This document shows, in pieces, positions 12,438 to 18,822 of a stretch of DNA of 35,514 bases. The notes beneath the pieces were generated by a model that did not search any database, had not been told where the DNA came from, and saw only the letters and a program-made list of their open reading frames with translations. The stretch is from Candidatus Roizmanbacteria bacterium CG_4_9_14_0_2_um_filter_35_15 (GTDB taxonomy: Bacteria > Patescibacteriota > Microgenomatia > UBA1406 > GWC2-37-13). The DNA is taken from positions 1 to 35,514 of the forward strand of contig PFRZ01000038.1 in the NCBI GenBank assembly GCA_002788805.1, given 5' to 3'. Positions within the stretch are counted from its first letter, which is position 1, and each line of letters begins with the position of its first letter. The position numbers were made by a program, and so were the translations under genes.

Positions 12438-13268
12438 TTATAAAATTACTCCTCGAGAGATAATTAACAAACTAGTAATAATAAAAATAATAAAGAGAAA
12501 ATGACCGATATTTTTACCAGCGACTCTAATAATATTGAATTTAGAAGCAAAATAAAAATCTAGGGCTAAAATAATTAAAAGGAAAGTTAAGAAAACAAAA
12601 TTAAGATGATAAGGAAAGTTAACAGATTTTTTTTCAACTGGCAGCTGTTTTTTAGCTAATACTTGAGGAACCATCGGTTGATTTTGGATGGCTAAAGATG
12701 AAGAGATAAGTTTTCCAAACATCTGAACAACAAGAGTAGTCTGTTCTCCGTTTAAAATTCCATTGACGACGGCTAAACCAACATCGCTATATTCCTTTTT
12801 TAAGAGATTTTCTCGATGAACTGGTGAAGTCATCCAGGCAGAAACTACACCATCACTGAATAAAAAATTTTTGGCGAGATTTTCTCCGGCATATTCATAT
12901 TTATAACCGGAGCTTAAGATAAAATCCCAAGGGGTTTTCCCATCAGGAGCATAGTGAGACCAGTAGTTTTTCTGGAACATATCTTGGGCTTTTTGATAAG
13001 CGGCTTGGGAAAGTTGATTATTATAAACAAGATCCGGTAAATTATTTTTTTCTCTTTCCTGATTGGTTAATTGGTAGAGTTTCTCTATGGAAATATCAGT
13101 AGCAAAACTTAAAACATTGGTTATCCCAGTTCGATTGAAGACAACCGCTAAAAAGAAAGCAATTACTAAATACAGGCTTAAAAAATCAGGGTGAAGAGAT
13201 TTGGCGCGGTAGTTATTTTGCTCGTTAGGAATGAAGAAATGAAGAAAAATTTTTTTTACCTTTTCCAT
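12438..13268 (-). CDS. Membrane-anchored CAP/SCP-domain protein (YkwD-like)
   Basis: The 276-aa sequence has one N-terminal transmembrane segment (about 28-48), an extracellular CAP domain (about 60-185), and two C-terminal transmembrane segments (about 210-233 and 252-274). CAP signatures are present: LTNQEREKNNLPDL, the His of YWSHYAPDG, the AGENLAKN motif and SPVHRENLL. In bacteria such domains occur in exported proteins of mostly unclear role, with wall binding, proteolysis or stress proposed. Three membrane anchors around one CAP domain is less usual than a simple secreted form. Its first 44 nt overlap the 3' end of the lamin-tail gene. The ATG has no Shine-Dalgarno, fitting translational coupling. 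Confidence 0.85.
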   Translation of the reverse strand: MEKVKKIFLHFFIPNEQNNYRAKSLHPDFLSLYLVIAFFLAVVFNRTGITNVLSFATDISIEKLYQLTNQEREKNNLPDLVYNNQLSQAAYQKAQDMFQKNYWSHYAPDGKTPWDFILSSGYKYEYAGENLAKNFLFSDGVVSAWMTSPVHRENLLKKEYSDVGLAVVNGILNGEQTTLVVQMFGKLISSSLAIQNQPMVPQVLAKKQLPVEKKSVNFPYHLNFVFLTFLLIILALDFYFASKFNIIRVAGKNIGHFLFIIFIITSLLIISRGVIL

Positions 13269-14442
13269 AAGATAATTTAATTTTAAGAGAAACTGAAACG
13301 ATAGTCAAAAGAGAATAGGAAAAGGAAATTATTAAGAAAGAATTAACTAATTTATTATTAGTAGATTTTATAATCTGTTTATTTTCAGTGTAAGCTCCGA
13401 GAACTTGACTATCATTAGTGTACAGTTGATTAATCAATTGTACATTTCCTGGTCGAGGAGGAGAAAAAGTAGTTGGAGAAAAAAATAAAGTAGGAGTAGG
13501 GACAGGTTTTGTTGTTAAGCTAACAGTTGGAATAGGGTTAAGACAGCCATTGTTTATTGCTTCGTATGAAGGTTCTTGAAGACAGAAATCATCATTATCA
13601 AATGTCGTTCGGCCAAAAGTTTTTTCTTTAGTTGAGGATTGATATTCAAAACTGTCTTTGGTATTTTTGTTAAAATCCAGCAAACTGACGCTATCGGCAT
13701 CGTTATTAAACATTGAAGAAGAAAGATTAAAGACTCGGTAGCCTTTAGCAGGGATTTCTAGAGAAAAAGATTTTGGAGATGAGCCGGCGTTTTCAATATC
13801 ATCTAGATACCAGTTAGATAAAGTTACACTAAAATCGTTATCATTGTAAATTTCTACCCACTCATTACTTCCAGATTCAGGATTAACCATGACTTCGTTT
13901 ATAAAAATATTATTGTAGGAAATCGGCGTTGGTTCTGGTATTTCTGTCGGTTCAAAACTCACTATGGGAGTAATCGTAGGTGATAAAGATATTGTTTCGG
14001 TTGGAGTCGGTGTTGGCTCAAAAACTAAAAGAGCGGTAGATGATGAATCATAATTTTTTCCATTTTTATTAATTCTAATAACTAATAAATTATTTTCAAT
14101 AAAAACGGTTTGGTTAACTCGTAATTTAGCCGACGCAGTAGCAATAGTGTCGTTATTAAAATTTATTATTGGAAAGCTGTCCCAAGATGAAGTATCTGAC
14201 AACCAATTATTAGTGGTTGGATTATAGGTTTCTCCTTTATTTAAATTAGCAGAAGTGCTACCAATCCGACCTTTAACATAATAACCGTCTGAGGAAATAA
14301 AATCATTGATTATGTTAAAGACAACACTAAATTCTTGATTAGGGTAAATTTGTAGGGGATAATCCTGAATAGTTACTTTAGTTGTTGCCCAAGCATTCCG
14401 AGCAAATAGACAGAATAAAAGAATAACAATTATTTTTTTCAT
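13225..14442 (-). CDS. Exported lamin-tail-domain (LTD) protein with C-terminal membrane anchor
   Basis: The 405-aa protein starts with a signal peptide (MKKIIVILLFCLFARNAWA). It continues with a beta-rich domain (about 20-145), a Pro/Thr/Glu linker with repeated PTPT and EPTP words (about 146-180), and an LTD domain (about 182-300) marked by INEVMVNP, NEWVEIYN and LSNWYLDD. A second Pro/Thr linker and a hydrophobic segment with a basic tail (about 368-405) follow, consistent with a surface protein held in the membrane. LTDs are immunoglobulin-like folds often found beside nucleases or in surface proteins; no nuclease domain is visible here. A well-formed promoter precedes the gene. It is probably the first gene of the operon down to 11119. 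Confidence 0.85.
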   Translation of the reverse strand: MKKIIVILLFCLFARNAWATTKVTIQDYPLQIYPNQEFSVVFNIINDFISSDGYYVKGRIGSTSANLNKGETYNPTTNNWLSDTSSWDSFPIINFNNDTIATASAKLRVNQTVFIENNLLVIRINKNGKNYDSSSTALLVFEPTPTPTETISLSPTITPIVSFEPTEIPEPTPISYNNIFINEVMVNPESGSNEWVEIYNDNDFSVTLSNWYLDDIENAGSSPKSFSLEIPAKGYRVFNLSSSMFNNDADSVSLLDFNKNTKDSFEYQSSTKEKTFGRTTFDNDDFCLQEPSYEAINNGCLNPIPTVSLTTKPVPTPTLFFSPTTFSPPRPGNVQLINQLYTNDSQVLGAYTENKQIIKSTNNKLVNSFLIISFSYSLLTIVSVSLKIKLSYGKGKKNFSSFLHS

Positions 14443-14504: not shown

Positions 14505-15683
14505 CTACTTAAAAGTGGCAGCAGAACAAATATTTCCGTAATGAGAGCTGAATTTTAGATCTGGACCGAAAACAGGATCATGCATAATATAGTCATTACC
14601 TTCTTTTTTAGTTAAGATGATAAAATGACTACCGCCGTAACTACCGCAGTTGCCGACACCGACAATGACATAGTTTCCGCTAGCTAGCTCTTGATCAATG
14701 TTTACACCTCCAGAGTAACTTCTTCCTGCTACTGCTTCCCAAGGAAGTTTCATGTAAGCGGTATTTCCAAAAAATCTATTAACATCTGAGGCAATATCAA
14801 AAGGAGTGACATTGGCGCCGTATTTTTTAGCGAGCATTGCCACTGAGGTTAATAAGCATCCTACATTCAATATGTTTTCTGACGAGTAACCAATAGTTTG
14901 ACCGGCCCAGCGTTCATCCCTTTGAGAAAAATAATTACCGTCTGATCCTGTCCCAAATTGATTAGCGCTAATAATTCCCGCTCCAACACTGGTAACAAAT
15001 GATTTAAAACCAGCCAGTTGAGCTTGAGCCTGAGTCAATAGTCTCTGATAATTAGTTTCGTCATTTTGAGTATCGGCCAATAATTTTTGCTTTTGGACTT
15101 TTTGTGTATCAAGAGACTGTTTTTGGCTGTTTAAAGTTTGAGTTAATTGATTGAGTTCCGCCTTTTTTTCCTCTCTCAATTTTTTTTGCTCTTCATAGTT
15201 AGATTTGGCTTCTTGCACTTGAAGTAATAATTTTTGATTATTATCTCTCGCGGTTTTAACATATTTTATTTTTGTCAAGAGATCGTTGGCGTTTTCACTA
15301 TCAAAGAGAAGACTGAAAAGAGATAGAGTTCTTTGTTTGTAACTTTCGACAATCTTTTGGATAAGAAGCTTTAATAAAGTGTTTAAAGATTGATCTAAAC
15401 CCTCTATCCGTGTTCCTAAAATATCAATCTCTTTTTGTGTTGATATTATCTTTTGCTCAGTACTTTCTATCTGTAAGGTTGTTAAATAGATTTGCGTATC
15501 CATATATTGAATCTGTTGTGATAGAGTATTTTTTTGCTGACGTAGTTCAGAGAGTTTAGTTTGATACTCAGCAATTTTTTTTTGTAAATCTGATATTTGA
15601 GGATTTTCTTGAGCCAGGGTGGAGAAAGCAATATAACAATATAGCAATATAACAATTAAGACAAGGATTTTCTTAAGATTCAT
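14505..15683 (-). CDS. Exported coiled-coil protein with C39-like cysteine peptidase domain, candidate FtsEX-dependent wall hydrolase
   Basis: The 392-aa sequence has a signal peptide or N-terminal anchor (about 1-25). A long Gln/Lys/Leu-rich coiled coil (about 28-220) resembles the regulatory coil of EnvC, PcsB and CwlO. A C-terminal C39_2-like domain (about 245-392) follows. The expected Cys-His-Asp triad is visible: C278 in NVGCLLTSVAM, H353 in GGSHFIIL and D369 in IMHDP. It lies 7 nt after ftsX. In characterised bacteria FtsEX binds the coiled coil of a peptidoglycan hydrolase and switches it on at the septum. The same arrangement here suggests that role, with a C39-type domain in place of CHAP, NlpC/P60 or LytM. 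Peptide or wall substrate is inferred. A TATAAT 6 nt before the ATG suggests a separate leaderless promoter. Confidence 0.8.
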   Translation of the reverse strand: MNLKKILVLIVILLYCYIAFSTLAQENPQISDLQKKIAEYQTKLSELRQQKNTLSQQIQYMDTQIYLTTLQIESTEQKIISTQKEIDILGTRIEGLDQSLNTLLKLLIQKIVESYKQRTLSLFSLLFDSENANDLLTKIKYVKTARDNNQKLLLQVQEAKSNYEEQKKLREEKKAELNQLTQTLNSQKQSLDTQKVQKQKLLADTQNDETNYQRLLTQAQAQLAGFKSFVTSVGAGIISANQFGTGSDGNYFSQRDERWAGQTIGYSSENILNVGCLLTSVAMLAKKYGANVTPFDIASDVNRFFGNTAYMKLPWEAVAGRSYSGGVNIDQELASGNYVIVGVGNCGSYGGSHFIILTKKEGNDYIMHDPVFGPDLKFSSHYGNICSAATFK

Positions 15684-15689
15684 ACTTTA

Positions 15690-15695
15690 ATTATA
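15690..15695 (-). promoter_or_regulatory. -10 box just before the coiled-coil/C39 gene
   Basis: A perfect TATAAT overlaps the ftsX stop codon and ends 6 nt before the ATG at 15683. Transcription from it would start at or next to the ATG, giving a leaderless message. No good -35 box is evident. Confidence 0.45.
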
Positions 15696-16587
15696 CTTTC
15701 AGGTATTTCCTTGTGGCAAGGAAAGATGAAATAATGGAAATAAAGCAGCCAAACAAAGAAGACAAGAAAAAGACAATTATTAAAAAAGAAAAGTTTATTG
15801 GCCAGACTTTTAGACCTAAGTCAAAAATTTTAATCTCCAAAACAGGAATTCCTTTAAGATAGGAAGAGAGAAAAGGATTAAGATAGAAAAAAATCAAAAG
15901 AAGGATAATAAAAGAAACCAAAGAAGCCACTAGGCCGAGGAATACACCTTCCTGTAAAAAAGGTTTACGGATATAAAAATTAGAAGCGCCAATCAAACGC
16001 ATCAATTCTATCTCATCTTTTTTTAAAGCAATCTTAAAAAGAGTCGTCGTGGTTAAAACAATAGTCGACATTAAAAGAAGGTAGACAAAAAATAGAAGGC
16101 TTAACTTTCTCAAAACATTAGTAAGATTAAGGAGACGATCAACAATATCTTTTTGAAACTGGACCTCATCGACCCCTCCCTGTTTTTTTAGAAACTCAGC
16201 AATTTCTGGTAGATAGACCGGCTTTTTCGCATAGATTTCTAAAGATGAGGGGAGAATATCAGCGGAAACCATCTCTAAAAGTAGAGGGTCGTTTTTATTA
16301 ATATTTTTATAGATATTAAAGGCTTCTTGTTGGGAGATATATTTAATTAATATTACTTTCCCAGAATTATTGAGTTCATCCCTGATTTTAAAGATTTCTT
16401 TTTCCGGAGTCGAGGTTTGGAAGTAAACGGTCACTTGCGGTCGGCTTTCCAAATAACCCAAGACCCCATGAAGAAAGGTTAAGGAAACAAAAAGAATCAT
16501 TGATAAAAAAAGCGTTAAAAACAACACTAAAAAAGCAGTTAATGTTTGGTATGGTGCCCTTTTTATTGAGGTGAAAAGTTCTTTCAT
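15691..16587 (-). CDS. ftsX: Cell-division ABC transporter-like permease FtsX
   Basis: FtsX is the membrane half of FtsEX, which does not transport but passes ATP-driven shape change to wall hydrolases outside the cell. The 298-aa sequence has one transmembrane segment near residues 18-40, a large outer loop (about 45-160) that in other species binds the hydrolase coiled coil, and three further membrane segments in the C-terminal half. The FtsX signature KKDEIELMRLIGAS before the second segment is clear. The start overlaps the ftsE stop as ATGA, and AGGAGG lies 9 nt upstream inside ftsE. The downstream coiled-coil/C39 gene is the probable partner. Confidence 0.93.
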   Translation of the reverse strand: MKELFTSIKRAPYQTLTAFLVLFLTLFLSMILFVSLTFLHGVLGYLESRPQVTVYFQTSTPEKEIFKIRDELNNSGKVILIKYISQQEAFNIYKNINKNDPLLLEMVSADILPSSLEIYAKKPVYLPEIAEFLKKQGGVDEVQFQKDIVDRLLNLTNVLRKLSLLFFVYLLLMSTIVLTTTTLFKIALKKDEIELMRLIGASNFYIRKPFLQEGVFLGLVASLVSFIILLLIFFYLNPFLSSYLKGIPVLEIKIFDLGLKVWPINFSFLIIVFFLSSLFGCFISIISSFLATRKYLKV

Positions 16588-17261
16588 ATTTCATAACCTC
16601 CTTTTCTTTGGTCTTTAATAATTTTACCCTCTTTTAAAGCAATGACTCTTTTTTTAAAACTGTTGACAATATCGGTATTATGAGTAGCGATAACAATCGT
16701 TCTTTGCCCTTCGAGTTTTTTGAAGACTCTCATAATCTCCCAAGCTGTTTTTGGATCAAGATTGCCGGTTGGTTCATCGGCTAAGATGATTTTTCTTTCT
16801 CCGACAACCGCTCTGGCGATGGCGACTCGTTGCAATTCGCCAGCAGAGAGTTGGACCGGAAAAACCTCTTCTTGTTTGGAAAGACCGACGAGCTGTAAAG
16901 CTTCTTTGACTTTTGATTTTATTTCTATTAAAGGCGAGTTCATTACTTTTAATCCCAGAGCAATATTTTCAAAAATGTTTTTATCGCTAAGAATCTTAAA
17001 GTCTTGGAAGACAACGCCAATATTTCTTCGAAGAACTGTCGTTTGAGAAAAATTTTTGCTGGCAATATCAAAGTCATCAATCATAATCGAACCAGAAGAA
17101 GGAAGAATTTCTCTAAGAATAAGTTTGATAACAGTGGTTTTTCCGGCGCCAGAAGGACCAACTAAAAAAAGAAACTCGTTGTCTGTGATTTCAAAAGAAA
17201 CATTATTAAGAGCAACGGTTCCTAAAAGGAATTTTTTGGTGACATTGTCGAATTTAATCAT
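16584..17261 (-). CDS. ftsE: Cell-division ATP-binding protein FtsE
   Basis: This is the cytoplasmic ATPase that drives FtsX at the division site. The 225-aa length is typical. Motifs: Walker A GPSGAGKTT (35-43), Q-loop (VVFQDFKIL), ABC signature LSAGELQRVAIARA, Walker B IILADEPTGNLD and a switch His in IVIATHN. The signature has LSAGE rather than the commoner LSGGE, which is within the range of FtsE proteins. It starts 2 nt after the stop of the small anchored protein and ends in UGA overlapping the ftsX ATG, so the three or four genes form one unit. Confidence 0.96.
   Translation of the reverse strand: MIKFDNVTKKFLLGTVALNNVSFEITDNEFLFLVGPSGAGKTTVIKLILREILPSSGSIMIDDFDIASKNFSQTTVLRRNIGVVFQDFKILSDKNIFENIALGLKVMNSPLIEIKSKVKEALQLVGLSKQEEVFPVQLSAGELQRVAIARAVVGERKIILADEPTGNLDPKTAWEIMRVFKKLEGQRTIVIATHNTDIVNSFKKRVIALKEGKIIKDQRKGGYEI
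16597..16602 (-). promoter_or_regulatory. Shine-Dalgarno AGGAGG of ftsX
   Basis: A perfect AGGAGG lies inside the 3' end of ftsE, 9 nt before the ftsX ATG. It fixes the ftsX start and shows that this genome uses the canonical anti-Shine-Dalgarno for at least some internal cistrons. Confidence 0.8.
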
Positions 17262-17263
17262 GA

Positions 17264-17698
17264 TTATTGAAGCACCTCAACTAAACCAACATCCATCAGC
17301 CAGCCAGCCTTTTCTCCTTGAAAAGTTTCTCCCCAGACTCTCACTTTTTTGCCGAGGAATTTAGATAGATCAACAGCTGTAGAGGTAAGATAGACGTTTT
17401 GCGACTCTCCACCCGTTCTTTGCAAATGAAAATTTCCTTCGCCGTCGATTCCTCCTTCTTTTAAGACTCCTTCGGCTTGATCTTTAAAGGTTTTTTTATC
17501 AGCGATACCAACCATTTTTTCCTTGGAAACGGTTTTTGTGGTTGAGGTAGTTCTTGAAAGCTTCGAGGGGATGAAACCAATAGCGATTCCGAAAATGACT
17601 GCGATAGCCACAATAAGAAAAAAACTAAGATAAGACATTCCGCCAGTTTCCTTTTTCTCTTCAATTTGGTGAATAAAATTATTATTAATATTTTCCAT
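17264..17698 (-). CDS. Small membrane-anchored protein upstream of ftsE, possible OB-like domain
   Basis: This 144-aa protein has a charged N-terminus, one transmembrane segment (about 22-43), a Thr/Lys linker and a small outer domain (about 65-144). That domain contains LSKFLGKKVRVWGETFQGEK, the sort of beta-strand pattern seen in OB-fold-like domains. I do not recognise a named family. It begins the ftsE-ftsX-hydrolase unit, 2 nt before ftsE, so a link to division or the wall is reasonable but only contextual. A weak TATTCT sits 8 nt before the ATG. Confidence 0.7.
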   Translation of the reverse strand: MENINNNFIHQIEEKKETGGMSYLSFFLIVAIAVIFGIAIGFIPSKLSRTTSTTKTVSKEKMVGIADKKTFKDQAEGVLKEGGIDGEGNFHLQRTGGESQNVYLTSTAVDLSKFLGKKVRVWGETFQGEKAGWLMDVGLVEVLQ

Positions 17699-17730: not shown

Positions 17731-17830
17731 ATCAAATTATAAATAACAAATAACAAATAAATTTTAAAAGTTTAAATATTTAAAATTTAAAACTTATTTG
17801 AGATTTGGGATTTAAGATTTAGGATTTTTT
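17731..17830. repeat. AAATCCTAAATC-type inverted-repeat spacer after prfB
   Basis: The left block (AAATTATAAATAACAAATAA) and right block (TTTGAGATTTGGGATTTAAG) are imperfect complements around an AT-rich centre with TTTAAATATTTAAA. This is the same family as 664-794. On the minus strand it begins inside prfB: the last codons (KNPKS-stop) read AAAAATCCTAAATCTTAA, which is the repeat word. Confidence 0.7.
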
Positions 17831-18822
17831 AAGTATGCTTCAATAAATCCCTCAATTTCTCCATCAAGGACTTTATCGGTATTAGTTTCTTCATAGTTAG
17901 TTCTCAAGTCTTTAACTAATTTGTAAGGATGAAGAACATAGCTTCTGATCTGTCTGCCCCAAGAGGCAATATGACCGGTTTTAAAGCCTTTGATAGTTTT
18001 TGCTTTTTTTTCTTGCTCAATCTGCCATAGTTTTGCGCGAAGGATTTTTAGAGCATTTTCTCGATTAGCCCCTTGATATCTTTCTGTCTGACAAGAGACG
18101 ATGATACCGCTAGATTTATGAATGAGACGAACGGCAGTGGCTACCTTATTGACATTTTGTCCACCTTTTCCTCCGGATCGATAAAACTGCCATTCCAACT
18201 CATCTTCTCTAACTTCAATTTCTTTATCTTCTATCATCGGCAAAACTTCGACTAAACTAAACGAGGTCTGCCTTAATTTATCAGCATTAAAAGGGGATTG
18301 GCGAACCAGCCGATGGACGCCGGCTTCGCATTTTAAATATCCGTAAGCAAACTGACCTGAGACATTAATAGTGGTGCTTTTAATACCGGCCTCCTCACCA
18401 GGAACCCGGTCAACTTCCTCAAAATTCCAGTCTTTTCTTTGGAAGTATCGGGTATACATGCGAAAAAGCATTGACGTCCAATCCATTGCCTCGGTGCCGC
18501 CTTGGCCGGCATGGATGGAAAAAATCGCATCACCTTGATCATAAGAGCCTGCCAAAAAAAGAAGAACCTCGTATTTTTTTATCAATTTCTCTGCTTCATT
18601 AAGACTATTTTCTTCAAATAAAATCTGCATCATTTCAATGTCTTCTATTTCTTTTTTCAAATCGTTAATTTTTTTCATTATCTTTGAAGCGTTTTGGGAG
18701 TCGGACCAAAAATCAGGAGCTAATGACTGTTTTTCCAAGTCAGCAATTTCTTGCTTTTTGATTTTTAAATCAGCTTTAGCAAGAATACTATCTATTTTTT
18801 TCTTTAATTCTTCTTTTTCCAT
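17812..18822 (-). CDS. prfB: Peptide chain release factor 2
   Basis: RF2 recognises UGA and UAA and triggers release of the finished protein. The 336-aa sequence carries the stop-recognition tripeptide SPF (176-178) and the catalytic GGQ (220-222) in RSGGKGGQNVNK. The N-terminal helical domain is about 15-25 residues shorter than in E. coli, and the programmed frameshift found in many prfB genes is absent: the frame is open from a single ATG. Its presence agrees with UGA acting as a stop in this window. The C-terminus ends in repeat-derived codons. Upstream is the 119-bp palindromic element; a weak AAAGG precedes the ATG. Confidence 0.96.
   Translation of the reverse strand: MEKEELKKKIDSILAKADLKIKKQEIADLEKQSLAPDFWSDSQNASKIMKKINDLKKEIEDIEMMQILFEENSLNEAEKLIKKYEVLLFLAGSYDQGDAIFSIHAGQGGTEAMDWTSMLFRMYTRYFQRKDWNFEEVDRVPGEEAGIKSTTINVSGQFAYGYLKCEAGVHRLVRQSPFNADKLRQTSFSLVEVLPMIEDKEIEVREDELEWQFYRSGGKGGQNVNKVATAVRLIHKSSGIIVSCQTERYQGANRENALKILRAKLWQIEQEKKAKTIKGFKTGHIASWGRQIRSYVLHPYKLVKDLRTNYEETNTDKVLDGEIEGFIEAYLKNPKS

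Follow-up and report, generated by a model that had tools for sequence, protein, structure and literature searches.

A candidate FtsEX-controlled hydrolase with a C39_2-like head, and exchange of heads among its relatives, in Patescibacteria

Septal wall cleavage is under the control of a widely conserved switch, FtsEX, for which every lineage studied has seemed to own one dedicated type of hydrolase. Which hydrolase does FtsEX control in Candidatus Roizmanbacteria bacterium CG_4_9_14_0_2_um_filter_35_15, and is that pairing fixed? The 35,514 nt of contig PFRZ01000038.1 analyzed here (the window, to whose positions all feature coordinates refer) contain a tight minus-strand run of open reading frames (ORFs) for prfB, a 144-amino-acid (aa) anchored protein, ftsE, ftsX and an exported 392-aa protein. 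Gaps of 113 bp between prfB and the 144-aa gene, 2 bp between that gene and ftsE and 7 bp between ftsX and the 392-aa gene separate them, and ftsE and ftsX overlap by 4 bp. An earlier note had described ftsE, ftsX and an exported coiled-coil protein as one unit led by a small anchored protein, and the ORFs are as it described. The identities of FtsE and FtsX are firm, given their profile matches (Table 1). Relatives repeat the order prfB, 144-aa gene, ftsE, ftsX, 392-aa gene, and the arrangement is therefore not due to chance. By analogy with FtsEX systems studied elsewhere, the 392-aa protein is very likely the FtsEX-controlled peptidoglycan hydrolase of this bacterium.

The 392-aa protein begins with a hydrophobic N terminus, MNLKKILVLIVILLYCYIAFSTLAQ, which ends in LAQ, is predicted to be helical from residues 3 to 19 and was judged by eye to be an export signal. 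The EnvC model of NCBIfam matched residues 27-220 (E 2.4e-9), and a profile built from the alignment of C39-type orthologues matched the EnvC coil in the PDB over residues 25-229 (E 8e-10), nearly the whole coil. An alignment of relatives with M23-type heads, described below, matched the EnvC coil at E 3.6e-16. A CC_PcsB-like region lies at residues 107-165, below cut-off. AlphaFold2, given the orthologue alignment as input, modeled the protein with a mean predicted local distance difference test score (pLDDT) of 88.4, and the relevant leaders among Foldseek matches of this model were the RipA coil, Vibrio EnvC-FtsEX, PcsB, RipC (8idc) and E. coli EnvC-FtsX. In EnvC, residues 114-160 meet FtsX (PMC11627006). 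By a near-colinear alignment this stretch corresponds to residues ~109-155 of the 392-aa protein, and it contains Y115, invariant in the orthologue alignment, and Y141, invariant or nearly so.

The C-terminal part of the protein had been read in the earlier note as a C39-like domain with a complete Cys-His-Asp site. Searched alone, the 392-aa protein gives sub-threshold C-terminal matches to C39 (E 0.0028) and C39_2 (E 0.008), scores for such short heads being modest. The C39_2 assignment is firm because orthologues exceed the cut-off of PF13529 (Peptidase_C39_2), with E-values of 6e-13, 8e-12 and 1.6e-9. Q254, C276, H353, D369 and the following P370 are invariant among 25 aligned orthologues, and the catalytic set of Cys-His-Asp plus oxyanion Gln is complete. 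The head is also confidently modeled, with pLDDT of ~86-98 in each ten-residue block. Neither of the outcomes that would have told against the C39-like reading, an unrelated fold or a bacteriocin-exporter C39 domain, was found. The latter is an N-terminal, cytoplasmic part of an ATP-binding cassette (ABC) exporter, whereas the head described here is exported, C-terminal, free of any fused ABC domain and carried on a coil of EnvC/PcsB type; the exporter reading was rejected on these grounds.

C39 peptidases belong to the papain-like clan CA, as do CHAP and NlpC/P60. The earlier suggestion that this head would bring a different catalytic fold to wall cleavage is thus not upheld: the CHAP domain of PcsB has the papain fold (PMC11627006), NlpC/P60 is papain-like (PMC6403190) and a solved C39 domain, that of an exporter peptidase, is among the Foldseek matches of the 392-aa model. 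C39_2 is a different family of the same papain-like fold; M23 would be the different fold.

Among known systems, PcsB of Streptococcus pneumoniae, an FtsEX-controlled coil with a CHAP head, resembles the 392-aa protein in having a papain-fold cysteine head on an exported coil that probably works through the FtsX outer loop. The weak CC_PcsB match, the Foldseek match and the existence of CHAP-headed versions of the family in other Patescibacteria extend this likeness, but the head here is C39_2, not CHAP, and the gene stands directly behind ftsX. RipC of Mycobacterium and CwlO of Bacillus, FtsEX-controlled coils with NlpC/P60 heads, have the same layout and probably the same mechano-transmission, and the RipC and RipA coils are among the structural matches; their heads, however, are of another family. 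EnvC of E. coli and Vibrio, an FtsEX-controlled amidase activator with a degenerate LytM head, has the closest coil by sequence, but the C39 head here keeps an intact active site and no Amidase_3 partner was detected. The likeness to Peptidase_C39_2 lies in the head family and its catalytic residues. We know of no Peptidase_C39_2 protein that serves as an FtsEX-controlled head, and no paper linking C39 with FtsEX was found in the open-access literature searched. As far as that literature shows, the head family is new for an FtsEX role; the fold is not. The 392-aa protein would work like PcsB and RipC, as a direct FtsEX-driven hydrolase with a papain-like head, on a coil like that of EnvC.

Family searches of the source genome, which is 91% complete and contains FtsZ (E 1.8e-50), detected no Amidase_3, M23, NlpC/P60 or CHAP domain, and the same four-family searches were positive in 4 to 11 of 14 control genomes. 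Because no other standard FtsEX head is detectable, the 392-aa protein stands out as the likeliest wall hydrolase under FtsEX control. We infer peptidoglycan cutting driven by FtsX from the behavior of PcsB, RipC and EnvC (PMC11627006) and from the exchange, described below, with other wall-hydrolase heads. The coil tip (residues ~106-150) would dock on the outer loop of FtsX; the adenosine triphosphate (ATP) cycle of FtsE, passed on via FtsX and the coil, would free or position the head; and the head, by means of its Cys-His pair, would cleave a peptide (or amide) bond of the septal wall in the manner of the CHAP head of PcsB and the NlpC/P60 head of RipC. Across the phylum the docking coil would serve as a chassis on which the head (C39, permuted M23, conventional M23 or CHAP) and adjoining coil base are repeatedly exchanged while the FtsX-facing tip is kept with the ftsX operon.

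Of 57 related genomes searched with the 392-aa protein, 52 contain a match; the relatives that carry names are Roizmanbacteria, Shapirobacteria and Microgenomates (Patescibacteria). Many of these relatives match residues 1-235 only, and their C termini form two clusters, one C39-like and one M23-like. In the M23-like cluster the order of motifs is reversed: HLHF adjoins the coil and HxGxD...YLH closes the protein, so that Pfam M23 matches these heads in two stretches, with profile positions 61-96 first in the protein. The HxGxD-then-HxH order of Peptidase_M23 is inverted in all 49 testable loci. Rotating the halves restored one full-length M23 match, and the rotated form scored higher, in 49 of 49; the median best-domain score against the conventional M23 model was 34 bits before rotation and 70 bits after it, and of the 129 positions of that model a median of 74 were covered before and 125 after. 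The zinc-ligand motifs are kept. This head therefore shares its motifs with conventional M23/LytM domains and differs in the order of its halves, and because the rotated halves give a full-length match it is, as judged from sequence, a natural circular permutation of M23/LytM with new termini after the YxHx strand (examples are L040:5995-7149, L020:1501-2661 and L045:5539-6690). Circularly permuted members have been recorded in a different family of wall hydrolases, NlpC/P60 (PMC6403190); in the open-access literature searched we found no paper on a permuted M23 or LytM domain.

How widely the two forms occur, and how closely they are tied to ftsX, was surveyed in 205 genomes of the class, from 44 families. 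A full-length coil with a C39 head is present in ~59 genomes of 20 families and a full-length coil with a permuted M23 head in ~130, a few genomes having both. Among distinct genes with enough upstream sequence, 64/72 of the C39 type and 52/59 of the permuted M23 type lie directly downstream of ftsX, and the median gap from ftsX to the hydrolase gene is 8 bp among loci containing ftsX. Counting only such loci raises C39-type adjacency to 65/66, but 64/72 is the fairer figure. The coil-plus-C39 gene is thus conserved beside ftsX in relatives, as the earlier note had expected. Its proposal that this lineage couples FtsEX to C39 needs revision, since within one genus the ftsX-linked gene bears either a C39 or a permuted M23 head. 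In Patescibacteria outside this class, ftsX is followed by a coil protein with a C39, permuted M23, conventional M23 or CHAP head.

Some loci carry several such genes. Tandem sets behind ftsX combine C39 and permuted M23 (L143/L216), CHAP, C39 and C39 (L196) or CHAP, M23 and C39 (L197), and two- or three-gene arrays with mixed heads were seen at L196:3205-8068, L197:1845-6239, L208, L216:1375-3654 and L220. Coil-plus-C39 genes that do not adjoin ftsX in the stretches examined are L121/L222 (G112), L126/L226 (G097), L117 (G144) and L123 (G213); G144 and G213 instead have a permuted M23 head on the copy linked to ftsX.

How often has the head changed? On a tree of FtsX from 116 loci, built, like the other trees, by a quick method, explaining the head labels takes 30 changes, of which well-supported branches force at least 20; with shuffled labels the figure is 37.7. 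Sister loci with different head types have FtsX proteins that are 77-90% identical and heads that are only 21-30% identical. C39 heads also cross families: that of L010 (f1) groups with those of L077 (f31) and L128 (f19), and that of L081 (f22) falls inside an f1 group. The FtsX tree and the C39-head subtypes shared across families accordingly speak against a single acquisition of the C39 head by one lineage, and that reading was rejected. Identity at the coil tip (residues 106-150) tracks that of FtsX (rho 0.62), whereas identity at the coil base (191-234) does not (rho 0.07) and follows head type instead, none of 1000 permutations reaching as high a value. Because the tip tracks FtsX while the base follows the head, the exchanged unit appears, on these comparisons, to be the head plus coil base, with the tip remaining in the ftsX operon. 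Simple replacement of the whole gene is not favored, the histories of tip and base being different, although selection is another possible source of the tip signal. The relatives are mostly metagenome bins; a chimeric assembly could account for one locus, but not for dozens of independent loci in conserved gene order.

Several observations weigh against this picture. Taken by itself, the window's 392-aa protein scores under the Pfam cut-offs for C39 and C39_2. The whole-model Foldseek E-values are weak, from 0.006 at best to 0.09, as is expected of a long coil with a small head, and unrelated coil proteins rank in between. Eight of the 72 C39-type genes do not immediately follow ftsX, and no ftsX was found in family f15 within the stretches examined. 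Finally, the tip agrees with the outer domain of FtsX no better than with its membrane part. Covariation was therefore discarded as proof of contact with FtsX, the equal correlations pointing to shared inheritance.

Other functions for the head can be set against direct cleavage of the cell's own septal wall. Classical C39 peptidases cut double-glycine leaders of bacteriocins, and the solved C39 domain among the Foldseek matches is an exporter peptidase, so the head might process proteins, such as surface proteins or leader peptides, when released or positioned by FtsEX. We consider this very improbable: the C39 head alternates at the same locus with M23 heads and, across the phylum, with CHAP heads, which are typical wall hydrolases, and this alternation suggests the same class of substrate. 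It is very improbable that the head instead switches on a separate amidase as EnvC does, cutting no wall itself. The coil is closest to that of EnvC, whose own LytM head is inactive (PMC11627006), but that head has lost its zinc ligands (PMC11627006), whereas the catalytic residues here are all invariant and the permuted M23 relatives likewise keep their zinc-ligand motifs. Without a detectable Amidase_3 in the source genome, an activator role is unlikely on that count as well.

A hydrolase aimed at the wall of a host or prey, with host diversity driving the exchange of heads, would fit the unusually high exchange rate for a housekeeping gene, and Patescibacteria are inferred to be episymbionts (PMC13059738, PMC12102498). 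Tight linkage to ftsE and ftsX and an EnvC-type docking coil nevertheless suggest that the cell's own FtsEX is in control, and the source genome has no further detectable head of a standard FtsEX hydrolase; we regard a host or prey target as highly improbable. An FtsEX-controlled hydrolase of the cell's own septal wall is the function we prefer.

The 144-aa gene upstream of ftsE, whose product the earlier note took for a possible further partner, is conserved across the class and precedes ftsE in the longer loci. Its product has the conserved pattern GGxDGEG...YLTSS...VDL...GKKVxVWGET...AGWLMDVG, the domain ending in AGWLMDVG, and G77, E87, G88, R94, W133, M135 and D136 are invariant; searches of Pfam and the PDB gave no convincing relative. 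Downstream of the hydrolase gene, in many relatives as in the window (12438-14442, minus strand), are genes for a lamin-tail protein and a CAP protein, which perhaps form one envelope unit with the hydrolase. Many relatives also have a second coiled-coil family of ~560-680 aa with a weak coil match (E ~1e-4 to 1e-7), for example at G004:C12, G043:C55, G054:C1:345228-345842 and G026:C1:1093306-1093998.

Table 1. Features of the ftsEX locus and its neighbors in the window.
Feature	Position	Strand	Basis or remark
prfB (release factor 2)	17812-18822	-	ORF, named from translation; same upstream place in relatives
144-aa single-pass anchored protein with small conserved extracytoplasmic domain	17264-17698	-	Conserved between prfB and ftsE
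ftsE, 225 aa	16584-17261	-	TIGR02673 E 8.1e-75
ftsX, 298 aa	15691-16587	-	PF18075 FtsX_ECD E 1.5e-14; PF02687; TIGR00439 (full-length FtsX model) E 3e-44
392-aa exported candidate FtsEX-partner hydrolase: signal peptide, coiled coil, C39_2-like head	14505-15683	-	
Coiled coil, residues ~26-235 of 392-aa protein	14979-15608	-	EnvC profile match; CC_PcsB; segment analysis
Putative FtsX-docking tip of coil, residues ~106-150	~15234-15368	-	
Coil base, residues 191-234 of 392-aa protein		-	Follows head type in segment analysis
C39_2-like cysteine peptidase head, residues ~236-392; Q254, C276, H353, D369	14508-14978	-	
Lamin-tail-domain protein, conserved downstream neighbor	13225-14442	-	PF00932 E 1.6e-12; in relatives
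CAP-domain (YkwD-like) protein, conserved downstream neighbor	12438-13268	-	PF00188 E 3.5e-19; in relatives

Two results were less expected: that heads have been exchanged repeatedly, and that one kind of head is a permuted M23. We think it fairly probable that the FtsEX effector of Patescibacteria is a modular chassis, with recombination exchanging its head (C39, permuted M23, conventional M23 or CHAP) from lineage to lineage at a rate well above what a division protein would be expected to show; phage, host or wall chemistry may supply the diversifying pressure. As part of the same reading, one of the most frequent heads would be a natural circular permutation of M23/LytM with no earlier report. 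Four kinds of head occur on the same docking coil, and unrelated cysteine and zinc chemistries trade places within one genus. These loci constitute a natural set of domain-swap experiments, which points to the coil as the part by which FtsEX controls its partner. They are also relevant to how cells separate when their genomes are very small and retain few other recognized wall hydrolases.

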